Shown here piece after piece: positions 31,086 to 47,406 of a stretch of 64,000 nucleotides of DNA. The position numbers and the translations under genes are program-made. Under the pieces are notes generated by a model. It was not told the origin of the DNA, did no database searches, and worked only from the letters and a program-made list of their open reading frames with translations. The stretch is from NCBI RefSeq assembly GCF_020405205.1, contig NZ_CP084469.1, positions 4,092,001-4,156,000 of the forward strand, in the 5' to 3' direction. Source of the DNA: Natrinema salinisoli. GTDB lineage: Archaea > Halobacteriota > Halobacteria > Halobacteriales > Natrialbaceae. Numbering within the stretch: the stretch's first letter is position 1; each line of letters begins with the position of its first letter.

Positions 31086-32048
31086 TCAGTCCTCGCTCGA
31101 GCCGACGGGCGGGCCGTCGAACGCCGGTAGTTTCGCTTCGATCTCCTCGCGCTCGTCCTCGAGCCACTCGGGAAGGGCGAGCCGCTCACCCAGTTCGTCG
31201 AGCGCCTCGTCTTCCGTGAATCCGGGCCCGGTCGTCGCCATCTCGAAGAGGATTCCGCCGGGTTCGCGGGTGTAGATCGACTGGAAGTACTTCCGGTCGA
31301 TGACCTCCGAGGGGGACAGTCCCGCCTCGGCGTAGGCCGCTCGCCACTGTTCCTGTTCCTCGACGCTCTCGGCGACGAACGCGACGTGATGGACCGTTCC
31401 GACGCCCATTCGCCCGCGCCCGGCGTCGGTTTCGACCAGATCGACGATCGAGCCGGGACCACCGGTCGCGCTCCGGTAGCGACGCCGGCCGTCGATCCCG
31501 CCCTCGCGCTCGTACCCGAGCACGTCGGTCAGAATCGTCTCGGTGGGACCGAACCCGTCGACGGCCAGCGTCACGTTGTAGAACCCGCGCAGCTGGTGTT
31601 CGGTCGGAACCGGCCCGCCCTCCCACGGCGTGGCGTCGAATTCGGCGTCGTCGGCCGCGACGAGCTCGAGTTCGATCCCGTCCGGATCCGCGAATCGGAG
31701 GACCGTCTCGTCGAATCGGGCTTCCGACTCGACGTCGACTCCCTCGGACTCGAGGCGGTCGCGCCAGTAGTCGACCGACTCCGGCGGAATCGCGTAGGCG
31801 GTCGTCTGCGTCTGGCCGGCACCGAATCGGCCCTCCCGCCCCTGGTCCGTCCACGGGAAGAAGGTGATGTTCGTGCCGGGAGAGCCCTCCCCGTCGCCGA
31901 AGTAGAAGTGATAGGTGCCCGTGTCGTCGTGGTTGACCGTTTTCTTCACGAATCGGAGTCCGAGCGTGCCGACGTAGAAGTCGGCGTTCGCCTGCGGGTC
32001 GCCGGCGATCGCGGTGACGTGATGGAGCCCGGGCGTGTGCAGTGACAT
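31086..32048 (-). CDS. VOC family ring-cleaving dioxygenase-like protein
   Basis: A 320-residue protein with two glyoxalase-like halves. The first begins with TPGLHHVTAIAGDPQANADFYVGTLGLRFVKKTVN (metal His in GLHHVT), the second with GFYNVTLAVDG and HHVAFVAESVEEQEQW; a metal Glu lies in ILFEMATT. Proteins of this type are annotated as extradiol ring-cleaving dioxygenases (PcpA/LinE-like) or glyoxalases. No aromatic catabolism genes surround it. Start ATG 32046-32048. Confidence 0.83.
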   Translation of the reverse strand: MSLHTPGLHHVTAIAGDPQANADFYVGTLGLRFVKKTVNHDDTGTYHFYFGDGEGSPGTNITFFPWTDQGREGRFGAGQTQTTAYAIPPESVDYWRDRLESEGVDVESEARFDETVLRFADPDGIELELVAADDAEFDATPWEGGPVPTEHQLRGFYNVTLAVDGFGPTETILTDVLGYEREGGIDGRRRYRSATGGPGSIVDLVETDAGRGRMGVGTVHHVAFVAESVEEQEQWRAAYAEAGLSPSEVIDRKYFQSIYTREPGGILFEMATTGPGFTEDEALDELGERLALPEWLEDEREEIEAKLPAFDGPPVGSSED

Positions 32049-32375
32049 AGCTGTTCTAGGGAGGCACCGCTTGAATCGTTTGCTCGCGTTCGCGTCACCG
32101 GGGGACGCGCGGGTTACCACGGTAGTGGTGTCGCCATCGCCCCGAGGGCTCCGAGTCCGCTTCGCCGTCCGCCGCGACGCTGACGACGTCAGTATCCAGA
32201 TCACTGAACCGGACCGACCACCTCACCAGCGAGAACACCAACACCCTCGTCGAACGCGTCGTCCGGGTCCTCGAGGAATCGGGCAGGGACATCGCGACGC
32301 CGGTCCCAGCGACCGGAAACGCAGCGTCCGAGAAGGCTCGAGCTCGGGCCGACCGTCGTTCCGGAGAGCAACTGG
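32049..32375. other. Intergenic stretch with possible coding remnant
   Basis: Between the VOC gene and the fructosyltransferase promoter. No gene with start and promoter is seen. A plus-strand frame ending in a TAG near 32380 encodes a helical acidic segment (LTSENTNTLVERVVRVLEE and onward) that looks gene-like in composition but lacks a start and a match I recognise; it may be the tail of a decayed gene. Confidence 0.35.
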
Positions 32376-32383
32376 TATAGTTA
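32376..32383 (+). promoter_or_regulatory. TATA box for the GH68 gene
   Basis: TATAGTTA lies 21-28 bases before the ATG at 32404, implying a leaderless transcript. Confidence 0.5.
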
Positions 32384-32403
32384 CTCAATTCGGAGTGAAC
32401 GTC

Positions 32404-33786
32404 ATGCGTCGAAGTGAATCAGTCTCGGTGACGGGTTTCGGCACCCGATCGGGATGGAGCCGAATACAGGCCGAACGTATCGAACGGACGGCGGCGACGA
32501 CTGCCCCCATCATCTACCCGCCGTCGGTCGATCCGGCACCGGACGTCCACGTCTGGGACACGTGGTTTCTCCGCAACCGCGACGGTTCGATCGCCGAGAT
32601 CGACGGCTGGCGGGTCGTCTTCTCGCTGACGGCCCCCGCCGACCGCCTGCCCGGGAAGCGACACGACGTCGCCACGATCCGGTACTTTTACTCTCGAGAC
32701 GGGAAGCGATGGCACGACGGCGGGCCGGTTTTCGAGGCGGGGAACCCCCTCGGATCTCGGCAGTGGGCCGGCTCGGCACTGTACGACGGCGCGGGCGAGG
32801 CGGGCGACGGCTCCCGGTCCGGCGGCGAGATCTATCTGTTCTACACCGCCGCCGGCCACCGCGGCGAGTCGGAGCTTTCCTACCGGCAGCGTATCGCTGC
32901 GGCCTCCGGCGGCCGGGTTCGCGTCACCGACGACGAGTTCGGGATCGCCGGCCCCTTCGACCACGAGATCCTGTTGACGCCCGACGGCGACCGCTACGAA
33001 ACCGAAGCGCAGTCCCGCGGTCCGATCTACACCTTCCGGGACCCCTGGTTCTTCGAGGACCCCGAGACCGGACGGACGCACCTCCTCTTCGAAGCGAACA
33101 CCCCCGTTCGCGACCGAGCGGATCTCGAGGACGACGACCCGTCGAGTCTCGAGTTCAACGGGTCGATCGGTCTCGCGACCTCGCCCACCGGCGATCCGAC
33201 CGACTGGGAGTTCGAACGCCCGCTCGTCGACGCCGTCCGCGTCAACCAGGAGCTCGAGCGCCCGCACGTGATCTACCGCGACGGCCGCTATCACCTGTTC
33301 TTCTCGAGCCATCGGCACACGTTCGCGCCGGGACTGGACGGCCCCGACGGGCTCTACGGATTCGTCGCCGATTCCCTCCAGGGCGAGTACCGGCCGCTCA
33401 ACGATTCGGGGCTCGTTCTCACGAACCCCGAGAGCGCGCCTTACCAGGCGTATTCGTGGCTCGCCTACCCCCACGACGGGGAGATCCTCGTCTCGAGTTT
33501 CTTCAACTACTACGACCTCGGGTCGTTGCACATCGACGACGTCGGATCACTTCCCGCCGAGGAACAGTTCAGCCGGTTCGGCGGGACGCTCGCGCCGACG
33601 GTTCGGCTCGCGCTCGAGGGCGATCGCACCCGCGTGAGGGGCACGCTCGACCACTGGCAGCTTCCGGCGGGTGACGACGCGTTGCCGCCGCTGTTGACCG
33701 ATTTAGTCGACGCGACGGACGAACAGGAGGACGGGACGGAGGGCTACGATACCGGCGCGGACTCGCCGGCGGCGTCCGCGGAGTAA
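32404..33786 (+). CDS. GH68 fructosyltransferase (levansucrase/inulosucrase type)
   Basis: A 460-residue five-bladed beta-propeller enzyme that splits sucrose and transfers fructose to make levan, inulin or water (invertase). Motifs: HVWDTWFLRNRD with nucleophile Asp52, TFRDPWFFEDP with stabiliser Asp213, and NQELERPHVIYRDGRYHLFF with the acid/base Glu. GKRHDVATIRYFYSRDGKRWHDGG is the sucrose-box context. There is no Sec or Tat signal although the enzyme is normally secreted, so either it works intracellularly or leaves by an unknown route. Convergent with the GH32 hydrolase 23 bases away: a make-and-use fructan pair. Confidence 0.88.
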   Translation: MRRSESVSVTGFGTRSGWSRIQAERIERTAATTAPIIYPPSVDPAPDVHVWDTWFLRNRDGSIAEIDGWRVVFSLTAPADRLPGKRHDVATIRYFYSRDGKRWHDGGPVFEAGNPLGSRQWAGSALYDGAGEAGDGSRSGGEIYLFYTAAGHRGESELSYRQRIAAASGGRVRVTDDEFGIAGPFDHEILLTPDGDRYETEAQSRGPIYTFRDPWFFEDPETGRTHLLFEANTPVRDRADLEDDDPSSLEFNGSIGLATSPTGDPTDWEFERPLVDAVRVNQELERPHVIYRDGRYHLFFSSHRHTFAPGLDGPDGLYGFVADSLQGEYRPLNDSGLVLTNPESAPYQAYSWLAYPHDGEILVSSFFNYYDLGSLHIDDVGSLPAEEQFSRFGGTLAPTVRLALEGDRTRVRGTLDHWQLPAGDDALPPLLTDLVDATDEQEDGTEGYDTGADSPAASAE

Positions 33787-33809
33787 CCGTCCCGATACGT
33801 GGCCGCTCG

Positions 33810-36008
33810 TTACTCCCAGGCCGATCCCATCTCCCAGCACGACCACTCGACGCGTGCGGCTCCCTCGTGTGCCGCCAGCGACGCGCCGGTCGCGTCCTCC
33901 CGAGTCGGGTAGACGCGACCGGTCAGACACCGCCGCTCGTTCGCGAAGAGTTCTATCGCGGAGCCGTCGAGGAAAACGCGCAACGAGAGCGGCCCCGGTT
34001 CGTCGATCGGCATCGACAGCTCCTCACTTGCCGCGTCGGGGTCGAGACTCGAGTCGGTTCGGTCGATCGCGACCGAGTCGCCGTCGTAGCGGACCGTCGT
34101 CCGCTCCTCGCCGTCCGGCGTCTCGAGCAGCCGCAGTTCGACGGCGTCGGCGTCGGCGAGGTCGAGTTCCAGGTCGAGTTCGAGCGCCCTCCCGTCGGCG
34201 ATCGAGACGGCGTCGGGTCCCTCGAGCGCGACTGTTTCGGTGCCGAGGCGGTCGGCCCGTCGGTCGACGAGTTCGTCGGCCGGCCGCTGGCGGAGCGTTC
34301 CGTCCTCGGCGAGGGTGAGTTCCCGCGGCACGGAGAGCGACCCCGACCAGCCCGCGTCCCACTGGGCCTCGGCCGTCCGCGTTTCGGGGAGCCACCCCCA
34401 CGTGAGGGTCCGCCCGTCGGAGAGGTCCATGGACTGGGGCGCGTAGAAGTCGCCGTAGTCGAGGATCCCGGTCGCGTCCGACTCGAACGAGCCCGTCTCG
34501 AGGTCGAGCTCTCCGAGGAAGTAGAGGACGGTATCGTAGTTGGAGACGTGCAAGAGACGCTTCTCGCCCAGGTCGAGCAGTTCGGGACACTCCCAGACGT
34601 CGCCGGCCCCCTCCCAGTCACCCACGAGCAGCGAGCCGACGTACTCCCACTCCGTCAGCTCGTCGGCGACGTAGAGTAAGGCCGTTCCACCGACGTCCTG
34701 GACGCCGGAGCCGATGACGTGGTACCAGCGATCGTCCTCGGACCAGATGCAGTGGTCCCTGAACTCGGCCTCCCAGTGCTCCGTCTCGAGGATCGGCGGA
34801 TCGACCGGAGCGCTTTCGATGACCGGGTTTTCGACGTGTTTCGTCCACGTTCGGAGCTCCTCGTCGCCCGCGGTCGCGAGACAGGGGAGCTGTCGCCGGC
34901 CGCGGCCGCCCGTATACAACAGCGTCGGCGTACCGTCGTCGACGACGGTACACCCCGACCAGCAGCCGCTGCGATCGGGACCGTTGGGCGAGGGCGTCAA
35001 CGCGACGGGTTCGTCGCGCCAGTGGACGAGATCGTCGCTCACGGCGTGGCCCCAGTGGATCGCGTGGTGGTAGGGGCCGCCGGGATTGTACTGGTAGAAG
35101 ACGTGGTACCGGCCGTTCCACTCGACGAGCCCGTTCGGGTCGTTGAGCCAGTTCGCGGGCGGGCTGATGTGATAGCGCGGCCGGTGTGGGTCGCTCGAGA
35201 GGGCCTCGCGATGCGCGGCGAGTTCGTCGGCGGACTTCGGTCGGCCGGTTAGCAGGTCGTCACTCGAGCCCGGACGTGAATCCGGGTTCGTGGTCGCGTT
35301 CGTCCCCGTTTCGCTGCCGGAACTCGCGAGATAACCGAGGGCGTTTTCGACGAGCCGCGTCGTGGTCTCGGTGAACTCGTCGGTCTCGTCCGCGTCCGGA
35401 GAACCGTCGAACGAGAGTGCAACACCGGCGCCGAGTACGGTTCCGTCGCCGATGGCCCACGAGAGGAGCGACGCCTCGTCGGGAACGTCGGCATCGTCGA
35501 CGACGGTCGAACCGAGGACGTCCGCACGCTCGGGTAACAGTTCCTGATACCGTGCGAACGGTGCCGGGCGCGACGGACCGTGAGTGAGCAGCCGGCGACC
35601 GTCGAGTCCGTCGAACAGCGGATGGGAGGCGTAGATGGATTTCCGAAGGTAGCCGCCGGACCCCGGTGGCTCGTCGACGCCGGTGTGCTCCGGTGGAACC
35701 TGATCGATCCCCCATGCCGCGACCGCAGCGAGCGCATGAACGCTCAGTAACAATCCGCCGCCGTCGCGGACGAACGGTTCGATCGATTCCCTACAATCGG
35801 CGACCCGCTCCGTGATCGCAAGCCGTTCGTTGCGATGCCACCAGCAGACGTCGTAGTCGTCCAGCTCGACGTCACCCGTTCGAACCGCCGCCATCGAAAT
35901 CAGGTCGACGGTGCCGACGTCGGCCGTCCGCGCCCAGTCGTAGGCCGTCCGCTGCCTCGGCGAGCACTGCTCGAGGTAGAGACATGCGATCCGCGGTGCG
36001 TCGCTCAT
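33810..36008 (-). CDS. GH32 fructosidase with N-terminal glutamine-amidotransferase-like domain
   Basis: A 732-residue protein in two parts. Residues about 5-230 look like a class-I amidotransferase/ThuA-like flavodoxin-type domain (DDYDVCWWHRNE, VRDGGGLLLSVHALAAVAAWG), without a clear catalytic Cys-His pair. From about 277 it is a GH32 hydrolase: WLNDPNG with nucleophile Asp290, FRDHCIW at 416-422 in place of the usual FRDP, and VWECPEL with acid/base Glu473; a C-terminal beta-sandwich (SLRVFLDGSAIELFANE) follows. GH32 cleaves terminal fructose from sucrose or fructans. No signal peptide. Start ATG 36008, with TATA-like AGTAAAAAC about 25 bases upstream. Confidence 0.85.
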   Translation of the reverse strand: MSDAPRIACLYLEQCSPRQRTAYDWARTADVGTVDLISMAAVRTGDVELDDYDVCWWHRNERLAITERVADCRESIEPFVRDGGGLLLSVHALAAVAAWGIDQVPPEHTGVDEPPGSGGYLRKSIYASHPLFDGLDGRRLLTHGPSRPAPFARYQELLPERADVLGSTVVDDADVPDEASLLSWAIGDGTVLGAGVALSFDGSPDADETDEFTETTTRLVENALGYLASSGSETGTNATTNPDSRPGSSDDLLTGRPKSADELAAHREALSSDPHRPRYHISPPANWLNDPNGLVEWNGRYHVFYQYNPGGPYHHAIHWGHAVSDDLVHWRDEPVALTPSPNGPDRSGCWSGCTVVDDGTPTLLYTGGRGRRQLPCLATAGDEELRTWTKHVENPVIESAPVDPPILETEHWEAEFRDHCIWSEDDRWYHVIGSGVQDVGGTALLYVADELTEWEYVGSLLVGDWEGAGDVWECPELLDLGEKRLLHVSNYDTVLYFLGELDLETGSFESDATGILDYGDFYAPQSMDLSDGRTLTWGWLPETRTAEAQWDAGWSGSLSVPRELTLAEDGTLRQRPADELVDRRADRLGTETVALEGPDAVSIADGRALELDLELDLADADAVELRLLETPDGEERTTVRYDGDSVAIDRTDSSLDPDAASEELSMPIDEPGPLSLRVFLDGSAIELFANERRCLTGRVYPTREDATGASLAAHEGAARVEWSCWEMGSAWE

Positions 36009-36031
36009 TTCCTCATATTTCTTGTGTTGCG

Positions 36032-36040
36032 AGTAAAAAC
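36032..36040 (-). promoter_or_regulatory. TATA-like box for the GH32 gene
   Basis: A GTTTTTACT-type stretch on the minus strand 24-32 bases before the ATG at 36008. Confidence 0.45.
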
Positions 36041-36120
36041 TCTCCCGGTGCGAGGCGGCGGAGTCGCCGACATCACCGAAACTGGCTCGATGAACTCGTT
36101 GAAACCGCCTTCGCCGGGTC

Positions 36121-36435
36121 TCCGTCACGGCCGAGTCGGACGAGCGATACCGCGGCGGACCCAAAGGATTAGCGCCTGTCCCCGGCTGCGAACGCGGCGA
36201 GACGATCCGACCCGAGGACGTGGCTCCCGTGCTCGCGAGCGAGCGAGGCGGGTTGAAAGGCGTTCCCGACGGCGCGACCGTCGTCCCGCTGCTCAACTAG
36301 GTCGACGACGCCGCCCGACGGGCCGTCGCTGAAGAGATCGCGACGGCGCTTCTCGAGCGAGCGCCGGCCGTGAGGCGCGTCGTGCTGGCGCGGATGGTCG
36401 CCGACGAACCGATGGTCGACGTGCTCGAATCCTAG
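36121..36435 (+). pseudogene. Truncated, nonsense-mutated yqeC (selenium/molybdenum hydroxylase accessory) remnant
   Basis: Read on the plus strand, the frame with first bases at 36157 gives PKGLAPVPGCERGETIRPED, then VLASERGGLKGVPDGATVVPLLN, an in-frame TAG at 36298-36300, then VDDAARRAVAEEIATALLE, ARMVADEPMVDVLES and a natural stop at 36433. This is the C-terminal half of a YqeC-type protein, whose genes usually sit next to MobA/MocA-like genes. An AAG or ATG to TAG change would explain the premature stop. The 5' half is missing and the DNA there gives way to the GH32 promoter, so the gene is dead. Its stop overlaps that of the convergent MobA-like gene. Confidence 0.72.
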
Positions 36436-41278: not shown

Positions 41279-43207
41279 ATGACTGAACTCGGCGGTTTCC
41301 AGGACCGCGTCGCACGAATCGATCTCTCAGACGGGGACGTCGCCTACGAATCGATCCCGGACGAGGACGCGAAGAAGTATATCGGGGCACGGGGACTCGG
41401 GGTGAAGTACGTCTTCGATCAGGGACCGGACGTCGATCCGCTCGGGCCCGACAACCTGCTCGCCTTCATGAACGGCCCGTTGTCGGGGACGCAGGTAACG
41501 ATGAGCGGTCGGATCGCCATCTGTACGAAGTCGCCGCTGACCGGCACGGTCACCGACAGCCACCACGGCGGCTGGTCCGGTGCCCGGCTCAAGTGGGCCG
41601 GCTTCGACGGGTTGCTGTTCGAAGGGCAAGCCGACGAGCCGGTCTACGCCTACGTCGAGGACGGGGAAGTGGAACTCCGAGACGCCTCCCACCTCTGGGG
41701 GAAGGGATTCCACGAGACCCGAGATGCGATCGAAGAGGAGGTCGAGGGCTCATACGGCAAGAACCTGAGCATCATGGGGATCGGGACCGCGGGCGAGAAC
41801 CTGGTCCGCTACGGCAACATCATGAACGAGGACGACCGCGCCTCGGGACGCGGCGGCACGGGCTGTGTCGCCGGGTCGAAGAAGCTCAAGGCGGTCGTCG
41901 TCAAATCGGGCACCAGAATGCCCAAACCGGCCGATCAGGAGACGTTCAAAGAGGGGCACATGCAGGCGATGCAGGCCATCCAGGAGTCGGAGGTCACCGC
42001 ACCCAACGAGGGCGGGCTTTCGATGTACGGAACGAACGTGCTCATGAACATCACCGAGGAGATGGACGGCCATCCGACGAAAAACGGCGTCTATACCTCC
42101 GGCGATTCCTACAACGAGGGCGAAGCGGATCGACCGCACGACCTCGATGCGGAACGCATCAGCGGCGAGAACGTCCGCGAGAACATCCTCGTCGACGAGC
42201 CGACCTGTCACTCCTGTCCGGTCGCCTGCAAGAAGGAAGTCGAAGTCGACGTGATGCACAAGGGCGAGGAGATGAACGTCCGCATGGAGTCGTTCGAGTA
42301 CGAGTCCGCCTGGGCGCTCGGGACCAACTCCGCGAACGACGACCGCGACAAGATCGCCGTCATGATCGACCGGTGTAACGACTTCGGGATGGACACCATC
42401 GATACGGGCAACATCCTCGCGATGGCCATGGAGATGAGCGAGAACGGGGACATCGACGAGGACATCGACTGGGGCGACACCGAGCAGATGCTCGACATGA
42501 TCGAGCGGATCGCCCATCGCGAGGACGACCTCGCCCACACGCTCGGTGAGGGTGCGGAACGGATCGGCGAGGCGTTCGACGCTCACGACTCCCGACTGGA
42601 CGTGAAAGGCGAGACCATCGCCGCGTACGATCCCCGTTGCATGAAGGGGATGGGCATCGGCTACGCCACCTCGAACCGCGGGGCCTGCCACCTGCGCGGC
42701 TACACGCCCGCCGCGGAGATCCTCGGCATCCCGGAGAAGGTCGATCCGTACGAGTGGGAGGGCAAGGGCGAACTCACCGCCCAGTTCCAGGACCTCCACG
42801 CGATCAGCGACTCCTTCGACATCTGCAAGTTCAACGCCTTCGCGGAAGGGATCGAGGAGTACGTCCTCCAGTACAACGGCATGACCGGACTGGACGTGTC
42901 CGAAGACGAACTCATGGAAGCGGGCGAACGCGTCTACAACCTCGAGCGCTACTACAACAACCTCGTCGGCTTCGACGGGAGCGACGACTCGCTGCCCGAG
43001 CGCTTCCTAGAGGACGGCATCCGCGGCCAGGGTGCCAGCGAGGGCGAGTACTGCGAACTCGAGGAGATGAAAGACGAGTACTACGAGTACCGGGGCTGGG
43101 TCGACGGCGTCGTCCCCGACGAGAAACTCGACGACCTCGGGATCGAGGTCGGACCCGGAACCGGCGTCAGCAGCGAGGGTGGTGTGACTGCATCGGGCGA
43201 CGACTGA
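41279..43207 (+). CDS. aor: Aldehyde:ferredoxin oxidoreductase
   Basis: A 642-residue tungsto- (or molybdo-) pterin enzyme that oxidises aldehydes to acids with ferredoxin as acceptor. The N-terminal domain has YIGARGLGVKYVF and GRIAICTKSPLTGTVTDSHHGG (first pterin region); the 4Fe-4S ligands are CHSCPVAC (310, 313, 317) and Cys515 in DSFDICKFNAF; the second pterin region is DPRCMKGMGIGYATSNRGACH. Acidic tail. ATG 41279 is preceded by AGAGG. Cytoplasmic. It sits directly upstream of the PQQ-dehydrogenase gene group on the same strand, but a 212-base A/T-rich gap suggests separate transcription. Confidence 0.9.
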   Translation: MTELGGFQDRVARIDLSDGDVAYESIPDEDAKKYIGARGLGVKYVFDQGPDVDPLGPDNLLAFMNGPLSGTQVTMSGRIAICTKSPLTGTVTDSHHGGWSGARLKWAGFDGLLFEGQADEPVYAYVEDGEVELRDASHLWGKGFHETRDAIEEEVEGSYGKNLSIMGIGTAGENLVRYGNIMNEDDRASGRGGTGCVAGSKKLKAVVVKSGTRMPKPADQETFKEGHMQAMQAIQESEVTAPNEGGLSMYGTNVLMNITEEMDGHPTKNGVYTSGDSYNEGEADRPHDLDAERISGENVRENILVDEPTCHSCPVACKKEVEVDVMHKGEEMNVRMESFEYESAWALGTNSANDDRDKIAVMIDRCNDFGMDTIDTGNILAMAMEMSENGDIDEDIDWGDTEQMLDMIERIAHREDDLAHTLGEGAERIGEAFDAHDSRLDVKGETIAAYDPRCMKGMGIGYATSNRGACHLRGYTPAAEILGIPEKVDPYEWEGKGELTAQFQDLHAISDSFDICKFNAFAEGIEEYVLQYNGMTGLDVSEDELMEAGERVYNLERYYNNLVGFDGSDDSLPERFLEDGIRGQGASEGEYCELEEMKDEYYEYRGWVDGVVPDEKLDDLGIEVGPGTGVSSEGGVTASGDD

Positions 43208-43419: not shown

Positions 43420-44319
43420 ATGGTAGAATACACCATACCAGACGCGACGAGCACGGAACACCGTGATCTGGCGACGACGCTCGGCGTCGACGCGCCCGAA
43501 AGCGGGGACGTAACGTGGGACCTGCTCGCGGGGCAGGTCGAACCGCGGACCGACTCGGCGTTCGGCTCGCGGGGCGAGGCGATTCGGACCGATCTGGCCG
43601 GCCGACTCGATCGCGACGTACTCGAGCGAGAACGCGAGAACATCGCGGACGAAATCGGTCGCCTGCCAGCCGTGCGTGATGTCGGGGTACCGGACGGGCC
43701 GGACGGGCTGTATACGACGGTTTCCGAACCGGGGTGGCGTCTCTACGACCACCTGCTCGAGATCGGTTTTTTCCAGAGTCTCGACGAGAACCTGCCGCGG
43801 TTCACGGCGGACCAGATCGAGACCACGACGCGCGAACTGATCCTCGCAGACCCCCTGTCGTCGGCGCTCGACGACGTCGGGTTCGACGAGTCAGAGAAGA
43901 CGGCGCTGCTGACGGCGGTCGCGAACAACGACGAGCGCCTCGCCCGCTGGGTGCCGTCGAACCAGATTCCGGACGGGGTCGAGTTCGAGACCGAAACCGT
44001 CCCGCCGCTCCATCAGCGCGCGATGGGCGGGGCGTTGCTGTGGATCCACGGACTCGACAGGCACCTCTGGCAGAACGAGGTGATGATAACCGATGCAATC
44101 CTCGACGACGCGGTCAGGTACGTGAAAGCGATGTTGGGTGGATTGTTCGTCTCTGCGACCGCTGCGTGCGACCTTGCCGGGGACGGCCGGTTCACGGACG
44201 AACAGTTGACCGCCGCGTTCACGGCCGGCGCAGCCGTTCAGATCGTGAGTCAGGAAGACCTGCTGCACGACGTCTTCTACATCACGGACGACATGCGCGC
44301 GCCGAGCGAACTGAGGTGA
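43420..44319 (+). CDS. Unrecognised 299-aa protein, first gene of the PQQ-dehydrogenase group
   Basis: A soluble, acidic protein without signal peptide or membrane helix. The second half is helical: LLEIGFFQSLDENLPRF, HQRAMGGALLWIHGLDRHLW, and AMLGGLFVSATAACDLAGDG. There is no CxxC or other obvious cofactor motif, only isolated His and Trp. I know no family for it. Six bases separate its stop from the PQQ dehydrogenase start, so the two are almost certainly cotranscribed. Roles worth testing are a dehydrogenase chaperone, subunit, or PQQ-handling protein. Confidence 0.75.
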   Translation: MVEYTIPDATSTEHRDLATTLGVDAPESGDVTWDLLAGQVEPRTDSAFGSRGEAIRTDLAGRLDRDVLERERENIADEIGRLPAVRDVGVPDGPDGLYTTVSEPGWRLYDHLLEIGFFQSLDENLPRFTADQIETTTRELILADPLSSALDDVGFDESEKTALLTAVANNDERLARWVPSNQIPDGVEFETETVPPLHQRAMGGALLWIHGLDRHLWQNEVMITDAILDDAVRYVKAMLGGLFVSATAACDLAGDGRFTDEQLTAAFTAGAAVQIVSQEDLLHDVFYITDDMRAPSELR

Positions 44320-44325
44320 TCCTCC

Positions 44326-46035
44326 ATGGCACTACGCAACGACAGGGCCGTTCAGGCCGCACGCGATATCGAACTGAAAGAGATCGAAGACGGCTACACG
44401 CTGGTCGGGGGGCCGGAGGAATCGATTACCGAACAACACGACACCGACCGGATTCCGGAGATCGACGTCAATCAGGAGATGCTGAGCAACACGGGCGACG
44501 ATCCCGAATCCTGGCTCATGTACGGCGGGAACTACGAACAGCACCGCGCGACGCCCGCCGACACCATCACGCCCGAGAACGTCGGTGACCTCGAGCTCGA
44601 GTACGAGCTGTCGGTCGGGACGGGCTCGAGCATGGAGGGGACGCCGATCGTCGTTCCGGGCGACCCGCCGGTCATGTACCAGACGAACGGGCCGAACCAC
44701 ATGAAGGCGATCGACCCCCGCGAGGGAGAGGTCCTCTGGAGTTACACATACGCGCCCCCGATCGGGGTCGAACTCTGTTGTGACGACAACAACCGCGGGG
44801 CGGCCGTTCTCGGCGACAAGGTGTACATGACGACGCTCGATTCGGGTGTCGTCGCGCTAGACCGGTACACCGGCGAGGAGGTCTGGCACACGAGCACGGC
44901 CGACCACGAAGAGGGCTACTCCGCGACGTGGGCACCGGTGATCCACGACGGGACGATCTACACGGGCAGCGCCGGCGGCGAGTACGGCGTTCTGGGATTC
45001 ATCGCCAGTCTCGACGCCGAAAGCGGCGAGATGGGGTGGAAGACGGCGACGCTCCCCGAAGACGAGTGGATCGGTTCGAGCCGGGAACACGGCTGCGGGA
45101 CGAGCTGGATGACGCCGACGATCGACGAGGAGCGAGGGGTGCTCCACTCGCCGGTGGCCAACCCCGGTCCCGACTTCGACGGGACGGTGCGGCCGGGGCC
45201 GAACTTCCCCACCTGCGGGACGATCACGATGAATCTCGAGGACGGCAGTGTCGAGTGGGGATTCCAGAGCAGTCCCCACGACGTCTGGGACTACGACGCG
45301 GCCGCGCCGCGGGTTCTGGTCCGCGACGTGGAAGTCGACGGCGAGTCGATGGACATGGTCGTCGGCTCCGACAAGGCCGGTTGGGTCTACATGTTGGACG
45401 CCGAGTCCGGCCAACTCCACGAGCGCAGTCAGGAGATCTGCCAGCATATCAATATGTGGCAGATGATACCTCACATTAGCCAGGACGAACGGACGCCATT
45501 CGTTCCCGGCGCGCCGGGCGGCAACGACTGGCAGCCGCCGTCGTACAATCCGGCGACGGGGCTGGTGTACGTCGTTCACCAGAACTACCCGCAGGATCTC
45601 TACTGGCGCTACGAGGAGTACGATCAAGGGCACCCCTACTGGGGCGGCGGACTGGACGACCCGGCCAGCGAGTTCCCCGACGAGTGGAACGGCGCGATCA
45701 CCGCCTTTGCGGCGGTCGATCCCGCGACGGGCGAACGCGTCTGGCGCGACTGGATCGAGAGCGAGGAGGAACGCTACATGTGGGGCGGCTCGCTGTCGAC
45801 CGCGACGGGACTCGTGTTCAACGGCACGCAGAACGGCAATTTCGTCGCCTACGACGGCGAGAGCGGCGAGCGCCTCTGGGAACACCAGTTCGACGTGCCG
45901 ATCAGCGCCTCGCCGATGAGCTGGTACGATCCCGGCGAGGAGAAACAGTACGTCGCCGTCCAGGTCGGCGGCAGCGGCTGGCTCCGCCAGGGGCCACGCG
46001 GCGACACGCTCGCCGTGTTCTCGATGGAGAACTGA
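44326..46035 (+). CDS. PQQ-dependent alcohol dehydrogenase (XoxF/ExaA-like propeller)
   Basis: A 569-residue eight-bladed beta-propeller quinoprotein. Active-site parts align with methanol/ethanol dehydrogenases: the vicinal disulfide Cys151-Cys152 (GVELCCDDNNRG), metal Glu219 (GSAGGEYGVLGF), stacking Trp261 (GCGTSW), metal Asn279 (ANPGPDFD) and PHDVWDYD at 318-324, where Asp322 is catalytic and Asp324 is the extra Asp found in lanthanide-dependent enzymes. Lys350 replaces the usual Arg. About 60 residues precede the first propeller blade, yet there is no Sec or Tat signal, which is odd for a family that acts outside the cell. A Tat-exported cupredoxin is encoded 30 bases downstream and is a likely electron acceptor. 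Substrate undefined. Confidence 0.88.
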   Translation: MALRNDRAVQAARDIELKEIEDGYTLVGGPEESITEQHDTDRIPEIDVNQEMLSNTGDDPESWLMYGGNYEQHRATPADTITPENVGDLELEYELSVGTGSSMEGTPIVVPGDPPVMYQTNGPNHMKAIDPREGEVLWSYTYAPPIGVELCCDDNNRGAAVLGDKVYMTTLDSGVVALDRYTGEEVWHTSTADHEEGYSATWAPVIHDGTIYTGSAGGEYGVLGFIASLDAESGEMGWKTATLPEDEWIGSSREHGCGTSWMTPTIDEERGVLHSPVANPGPDFDGTVRPGPNFPTCGTITMNLEDGSVEWGFQSSPHDVWDYDAAAPRVLVRDVEVDGESMDMVVGSDKAGWVYMLDAESGQLHERSQEICQHINMWQMIPHISQDERTPFVPGAPGGNDWQPPSYNPATGLVYVVHQNYPQDLYWRYEEYDQGHPYWGGGLDDPASEFPDEWNGAITAFAAVDPATGERVWRDWIESEEERYMWGGSLSTATGLVFNGTQNGNFVAYDGESGERLWEHQFDVPISASPMSWYDPGEEKQYVAVQVGGSGWLRQGPRGDTLAVFSMEN

Positions 46036-46065: not shown

Positions 46066-47406
46066 ATGACGAACGAACAACGTTCACGCGACGACGTCTC
46101 GCGCCGTAGGCTGTTGCAAGGGACGGCGGCGCTCGCCGGAACAGCTGCCGTCGGCAACGCGAGCGCGTACCGCGACGAGATCGACTTCCTGCTTCCGACG
46201 ACGCAGAACGACGGCGAGGGGCGAACGTTCCAGATGCTCGGCATCGTCGGCGGGTGGGTCGGCGTCGCACCTCACGAGATCGACGCCAAGTCCAACCCCT
46301 CGCTCCGGCTGATCGAGGGCGAACAACACGAGGTCATCTGGACGAACGGCGACGGCGCGACGCACAACTTCAACATCACCGCGGGCAGCGCGGTCGACGA
46401 TGACGCCGAGATACTCGAGACCACGGAATCGCTGACCGAACAGGGCGAGACGACCTCTCTCCAGTTCACCGCGAGCGAGGAGATGGAGGAGTACTTCTGC
46501 ATGCCCCATCCGGCCCAGATGCGCGGCCCGATCGAGCTGATTCAGCCCGACGAGGTCCACGAACTGGTAGTCCACGTCGAGAACGAAGCGGGCGAACCCC
46601 TCGGTGCGGAGGTCTACATCGACGGGATGCACTCGTTCTCGAACATCGCCGCTCGGCCGGACCCGACGGAGCAGGCGGAAGACGAGATGGCGGTCGCCCG
46701 ATTCGACATGCTCGAGGACGGCGAGTACGAACTCGAGGCCTGGACGTACGGCCACGAACGGGTTACGGACACGGTAACGATCGACGGCGACGATCAGGAA
46801 GTCACCGTCACGGTGCCGACCACCGATCCGGGCGAACCGACCGCCACCTACTCGATGCGCCTCGAGGAGGGCCAGTGGGTCGGTCAGCATCCCGACGCGA
46901 TCGCCGACGAGACGAATCCGACGCTCGAACTCGAGGCGGGCGAATCCTACGCCGTCGAGTGGGAGAACACGATCGGTCGCCTCGAGCCGGAGGGAGAGAA
47001 TAGACACTACGAACCGCTCCCCGGACACAACTTCGTGATCGCCACCGGCGGCGACACCAACGAGTGGAACACGTACCTCCGATCGGACTTCACCGACGCG
47101 GTTGGCGAGACACAGACCGTCACGTTCGTCGCGAAAGAGGAGATGGCCGTCTATCTCGATCAGGCGCAACTCGATGCCGTCGGCGAGATCTCCGTCAGCG
47201 GCGAGTCGACGACCGACGCGGGCGACGTGACAGTCGAGACGGACGGTGCGGACGGCAACGAGACAGACGAAGTGGGTGACAACGAGACGGATGGAGTAGG
47301 TGGCAACGAGACAGTCGCGGCGGACGGCAACGAGACGGACGAAGTGGGTGACAACGAGACGATCACGGCGGACGGCAACGAGACGAGCGGTAACGAGACA
47401 GGCTAG
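46066..47406 (+). CDS. Tat-exported cupredoxin-domain protein, putative electron acceptor
   Basis: A 446-residue protein with Tat signal SRDDVSRRRLLQGTAAL cleaved near Ala34. Residues about 50-160 form a cupredoxin with type-1 copper ligands His100 (GATHNFNI) and Cys145, His148, Met152 (YFCMPHPAQM). A carboxypeptidase-regulatory-like beta domain spans about 163-255, then a second cupredoxin-like domain from 262 to 375 that keeps a His (PGHNFVIA) but lacks the Cys-His-Met loop. The tail has seven NET sequons, suggesting N-glycosylation. It has no lipobox or C-terminal anchor. Position right behind the PQQ dehydrogenase fits a blue-copper electron carrier. Confidence 0.85.
   Translation: MTNEQRSRDDVSRRRLLQGTAALAGTAAVGNASAYRDEIDFLLPTTQNDGEGRTFQMLGIVGGWVGVAPHEIDAKSNPSLRLIEGEQHEVIWTNGDGATHNFNITAGSAVDDDAEILETTESLTEQGETTSLQFTASEEMEEYFCMPHPAQMRGPIELIQPDEVHELVVHVENEAGEPLGAEVYIDGMHSFSNIAARPDPTEQAEDEMAVARFDMLEDGEYELEAWTYGHERVTDTVTIDGDDQEVTVTVPTTDPGEPTATYSMRLEEGQWVGQHPDAIADETNPTLELEAGESYAVEWENTIGRLEPEGENRHYEPLPGHNFVIATGGDTNEWNTYLRSDFTDAVGETQTVTFVAKEEMAVYLDQAQLDAVGEISVSGESTTDAGDVTVETDGADGNETDEVGDNETDGVGGNETVAADGNETDEVGDNETITADGNETSGNETG

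Follow-up and report, generated by a model that had tools for sequence, protein, structure and literature searches.

A haloarchaeal quinoprotein with a predicted lanthanide-type metal site and an orphan helical partner in Natrinema salinisoli

The window, by which we mean the whole 64,000-nucleotide stretch of DNA that was analysed (positions 4,092,001 to 4,156,000 of contig NZ_CP084469.1, forward strand), belongs to the 4.7 Mb, three-contig genome of Natrinema salinisoli, which groups with Natrinema. It encodes a protein with the fold of PQQ alcohol dehydrogenases, hereafter Q, whose nearest named relatives, both 91% identical, are found in N. versiforme and N. salsiterrestre. The same genome has three copies in all, the other two being located on a 400 kb contig and sharing 62% and 58% identity with Q. 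Immediately upstream of Q is a gene for an uncharacterised protein, hereafter X. The features of the locus are the following.

41279..43207, + strand: aldehyde:ferredoxin oxidoreductase (PF01314/PF02730), upstream of X
43420..44319, + strand: X, uncharacterised all-helical protein of 299 residues, 6 bases upstream of Q
44326..46035, + strand: Q, PQQ alcohol dehydrogenase fold, 569 residues, no signal peptide (PF01011, E 2.5e-52)
44776..44781, + strand: Cys151-Cys152 of Q, vicinal pair over PQQ, equivalent to Cys104-105 of 4MAE
44980..44982, + strand: Glu219 of Q, metal ligand, equivalent to Glu172 of 4MAE
45160..45162, + strand: Asn279 of Q, metal ligand, equivalent to Asn256 of 4MAE
45277..45297, + strand: metal motif H318-D-V-W-D322-Y-D324 of Q, with the catalytic Asp and the lanthanide-type extra Asp
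46066..47406, + strand: cupredoxin with a twin-arginine signal peptide (PF00127, E 1.2e-11), 30 bases downstream of Q

As for the metal site, codons 45280-45300 (GAC GTC TGG GAC TAC GAC GCG) encode D319-V-W-D322-Y-D324-A325, which places a second Asp two positions past the catalytic one. The first-pass annotation of this DNA had singled out this Asp within a PHDVWDYD motif, and only its numbering needs a trivial correction, from 318-324 to 317-324. When Q was aligned with XoxF (4MAE) using HMMER, the alignment was ungapped near the ligands, and E219, N279, D322 and D324 of Q correspond to Glu172, Asn256, Asp299 and Asp301, which are the lanthanide ligands tabulated for 4MAE (PMC11845868). Glu219 and Asn279, which the annotation had named as the other ligands, are where it placed them. 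The last position of the motif is Asp in the lanthanide enzymes PedH (6zcw, WDFD) and XoxF (4mae, WDYD), whereas the calcium enzymes compared have Ala in MxaF (1h4i, WDYA), Ser in ExaA (1flg, WDFS) and Thr in the quinohaemoprotein 1kb0 (WDYT), which bears out the contrast between XoxF and MxaF on which the annotation had relied. As in XoxF, where Gly171 precedes the Glu ligand that follows Ala in MxaF (PMC11845868), Glu219 of Q is preceded by a Gly (Gly218). Downstream of D324, Q has AAAPR in place of the GVNE of XoxF and PedH, so second-shell support of the metal may differ.

The motif is conserved among relatives. In an alignment of 66 haloarchaeal rows (the Q of the window among them) and 15 actinobacterial rows, D324 is kept in 66/66 and 15/15, down to ~35% identity, which shows that the extra Asp is no chance occurrence. 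D322, D324, N279, R157, W261 and K350 are invariant across the 81 rows, and E219 occurs in 80 of them. The pocket residues E104, C151-152, R157, T201, W261 and K350 agree with 4MAE or its relatives; the Cys-Cys pair is present in 46 of the 66 haloarchaeal proteins and missing from a clade ~40% identical. In two haloarchaeal genomes (L113 and L115) Q is divergent, with D-R-D, and the X-like gene, itself divergent, lies on the other strand.

The AF2 model of Q (pLDDT 87) is an eight-bladed PQQ propeller that best matches PedH (6zcw, Z 46, rmsd 1.9, 505 residues aligned), followed by XoxF (6dam, Z 44), but also by the calcium enzyme 1flg (Z 44); the model informs on fold, not on metal preference. 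PedH/ExaF, a lanthanide-dependent ethanol dehydrogenase, is also the best sequence match of Q, yet at only ~31% identity. It shares with Q the four ligands and the vicinal Cys pair but is periplasmic, while Q has no signal peptide and comes with an obligate X. XoxF (4MAE, 6DAM) has the same four ligands and the Gly before Glu, but features of XoxF proper are absent from Q, which has Pro282 for Thr259 and Lys350 for Arg326. Q scores 370.5 bits against TIGR03075 (PQQ-dependent dehydrogenase, methanol/ethanol family), under the curated cut-off of 480, whereas an actinobacterial relative scores 622 bits. The nearest bacterial relatives that we found (34-36% identity) are such actinobacterial TIGR03075 quinoproteins, encoded beside MSMEG_3727-family proteins; like Q, they have D-Y-D, no signal peptide and a small gene just upstream. 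Ligand set, conservation and fold together make a lanthanide-type metal site in Q a well-supported prediction.

The partner X was modelled by AF2 as an all-helical protein (pLDDT 93). A Pfam search gave no match at E<10, and comparison with PDB folds returned nothing significant by Foldseek and unrelated helical bundles by VIA-align (Z <=7.2). A PqqC-like identity for X was considered and set aside, there being no Pfam match at E 10 and no significant Foldseek match; PqqC-like folds are missing from the structure matches, an absence that falls short of excluding such a fold. Despite its anonymity, X is tightly tied to Q. Of 391 haloarchaeal genomes, 69 carry Q and exactly these carry X, while a 70th has fragments of both; co-occurring in 69/70 genomes, the X-Q pairing is obligate. 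At 62 of the 66 haloarchaeal loci X lies upstream of Q on the same strand, and among 295 genomes sampled across the phylum X occurs in only five, all from the window's own family. In a Natrinema-group genome (G192 C1:1281353-1282341), fragments of X and Q are adjacent, as though decayed together. X was not found at the actinobacterial Q loci, which have a different small partner: directly upstream of Q, where haloarchaea have X, lies a gene for an MSMEG_3727-family PQQ-associated protein (TIGR04339), at 7464-7919 of L125 and in the equivalent spot of 14 other loci.

A possible role for X comes from its N-terminus. No Q of the set has a hydrophobic N-terminus, whereas the start of X at 24 of the 66 haloarchaeal loci combines an RRxFLK-like twin-arginine motif with a hydrophobic stretch behind it (median KD 1.64 vs 0.15). 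Moreover, three partner Q (L102, L103, L123) end in archaeosortase-type tails; searched alone, the tail of L123 scores above the PGF-CTERM cut-off, and the similar tails of L102/L103 score below it. Since many X carry Tat signals while signal-less Q can bear surface-anchor tails, X looks like a Tat escort for Q, the two forming a putative hitchhiker export pair. The logic would be that of FAD glucose dehydrogenase, whose signal-bearing small subunit exports the signal-less catalytic subunit (PMC6719666), although X differs from such a subunit in showing neither sequence similarity nor a significant fold match to the solved proteins retrieved.

The X of the window lacks the Tat signal present in relatives, and 42 of the 66 labelled rows keep X without the motif. 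On a tree built by a quick method and rooted on actinobacteria, the Tat state changes about 3-4 times, most deep haloarchaeal branches carry the Tat form, and the signal is lost once in a 38-row clade that includes the window and once in the L110-L112 clade. With the signal lost in the window's clade, X-Q would be either cytoplasmic or exported by another carrier. The neighbouring genes point both ways. No-Tat loci have [2Fe-2S] ferredoxin (19/40) and CDC48-like ATPase (18/40) neighbours that are seen at 0/24 Tat loci, a comparison whose significance is overstated by the relatedness of the no-Tat loci, and these neighbours suggest a cytoplasmic enzyme. The window's sub-clade, on the other hand, retains the Tat cupredoxin gene 30 bases after Q, which speaks for a site outside the cell. 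The clade of the two own-genome paralogues has a CDC48-like AAA ATPase gene adjoining X-Q (L038 5150-7351 and 12122-14311; L069, L079, L090).

This cupredoxin, whose N-terminus reads SRRRLLQGTAALAGTAAVGNASA, is a candidate electron acceptor of Q. Upstream, the aldehyde:ferredoxin oxidoreductase could oxidise the aldehyde product of Q, and a route from alcohol through aldehyde to acid is plausible at this locus, but the oxidoreductase gene is close to Q in only some relatives. Genes of the Na+/Ca2+ exchanger family (PF01699) occur near Q at 17 of 66 haloarchaeal loci, vs ~2 expected in a rough count, within 8 kb and often as a tandem pair (L061, L086, L090, L104, L109, L114 and 11 others). They are also seen near actinobacterial Q (L124, L134, L135, L137), and their products are candidate calcium or lanthanide transporters.

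The supply of PQQ sets haloarchaea apart from the actinobacteria. PqqC (TIGR02111) had no match over cut-off in 391 haloarchaeal genomes, and among genomes carrying Q it was over cut-off in 0/30 haloarchaea vs 14/14 actinobacteria, which served as positive control. In the subset searched for PqqB and PqqD, both were over cut-off in 0/13 haloarchaea vs 3/3 actinobacteria, the best haloarchaeal PqqB match, from Halorientalis marina, staying below cut-off at 113 of 245 bits. The window's own genome is likewise without PqqB, PqqC or PqqD over cut-off. The PqqE-like matches of the own genome were set aside, as they are radical SAM proteins below cut-off and like matches recur in all 14 control genomes, which makes them uninformative on PQQ synthesis. 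The absence of PqqC, PqqB and PqqD indicates that the canonical PQQ pathway is missing in haloarchaea, and hence that PQQ is scavenged or made another way. Scavenging appears to be the simplest source, since organisms that need PQQ yet do not make it are common (PMC12124388), and the PQQ of Q is probably obtained in this manner. Among the recurrent neighbours of Q are genes of NMT1/THI5-like ABC transporters (L061, L067, L070, L073 and others); PQQ or a precursor is conceivable as their substrate.

The explanation that we favour as a whole, and to which we give about an even chance, combines a Q of the PedH/XoxF kind, a lanthanide, an obligate X, ancestral Tat export and scavenged PQQ. Q would be an active PQQ alcohol dehydrogenase, its metal held by Glu219, Asn279, Asp322 and Asp324; in the cell this metal would most likely be a light lanthanide, with Ca2+ possibly a poorer substitute. 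Q would work with X as its obligate partner. Where haloarchaea keep the older form, the Tat signal of X would carry the folded, signal-less Q outside the cell, where blue copper proteins would accept its electrons. In the window's clade, from which the Tat signal is gone, X-Q may be cytoplasmic or may travel with another carrier, perhaps the adjacent Tat cupredoxin, and PQQ would come not from the canonical route but probably from scavenging. It is improbable, to our mind, that Q has instead returned to the cytoplasm to work with a lanthanide and imported PQQ, handing its aldehyde to the neighbouring oxidoreductase, with X as a metal or cofactor loader.

The identity of the metal is where this explanation is most directly contested. 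Within the XoxF/ExaF/PedH branch, the extra Asp is an accepted lanthanide signature, reported to be essential (review, PMC11845868). Membrane glucose dehydrogenase (m-GDH), however, also has D-x-D, and the metals it complexes are Ca, Mg, Zn and Sr (PMC11996626), so the extra Asp falls short of proving lanthanide use. The suggestion of the first-pass annotation that the enzyme may need rare earths is thus reasonable, with all four ligands conserved and PedH as the nearest solved structure, but the motif that m-GDH shares does not carry it as far as a need. Q could be active with PQQ but use Ca2+ or be promiscuous, D324 being an extra, non-discriminating residue as in m-GDH. The Na+/Ca2+ exchanger-family genes at 17/66 loci fit this possibility, and Ca2+ can be abundant in hypersaline brines. 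Against it, Q is closest to the very branch in which the extra Asp marks lanthanide enzymes (PMC11845868), and the calcium alcohol dehydrogenases compared carry Ala, Ser or Thr. We consider the use of Ca2+ the less likely outcome and favour a lanthanide as the metal in the cell, a reading for which the chances seem to us evenly balanced. A more radical alternative is that Q is "empty" or differently loaded, haloarchaea having no PQQ and the propeller holding another cofactor or none. The Pqq searches (PqqC 0/391; PqqB/PqqD 0/13) are in keeping with it, and acidobacterial non-PQQ relatives do form a named family, TIGR04528 (acido-empty quinoprotein), but Q scores far under the cut-off of that family (279 of 650 bits), and the PQQ and metal pocket, which drift would erase, is conserved in the window's clade. 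With PQQ-requiring non-producers common (PMC12124388), we regard an empty Q as unlikely. Whatever the metal, X might be an activase, a cofactor loader or a structural subunit, its RRxFLK being incidental. Its retention in the 42/66 rows in which the Tat motif is gone makes a second role of X probable, and the CDC48-like ATPase and ferredoxin neighbours of the no-Tat clade are compatible with such a role, but the motif is N-terminal and followed by a hydrophobic core, and three partner Q have surface-anchor-like tails despite the lack of a signal on Q. A purely non-export X is accordingly a possibility to which we lend only limited credence, and export remains our preferred ancestral role for X.

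In the titles and abstracts searched in the open-access literature on haloarchaea or Natrinema and lanthanide, XoxF or PQQ, no such enzyme is described. The fold and motif of Q are already known, as are archaeal D-Y-D quinoproteins in marine thaumarchaea, where heterotrophic Thaumarchaeota have the motif in 4 of 21 quinoproteins (PMC7300363). Unlike Q, these have no Cys-Cys pair and mostly have signal peptides, and the genomes reportedly encode a PQQ synthase (PMC7300363). New relative to the literature searched are the haloarchaeal clade, the orphan partner X, the pattern of Tat signal retention and loss and the missing PQQ pathway. Q is carried by about a sixth of the haloarchaeal genomes sampled. 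To our knowledge, lanthanide enzymes have so far been characterised only from bacteria; if Q is indeed one, rare-earth biology would reach into an archaeal class that is large, culturable and genetically tractable. The missing pathway and the orphan X raise the questions of where archaeal PQQ comes from and whether X is an exporter or a loader of Q. Elsewhere in the window, at 32035-36296, lie two neighbouring genes of opposite orientation that by eye look like a levansucrase and a GH32 levanase.
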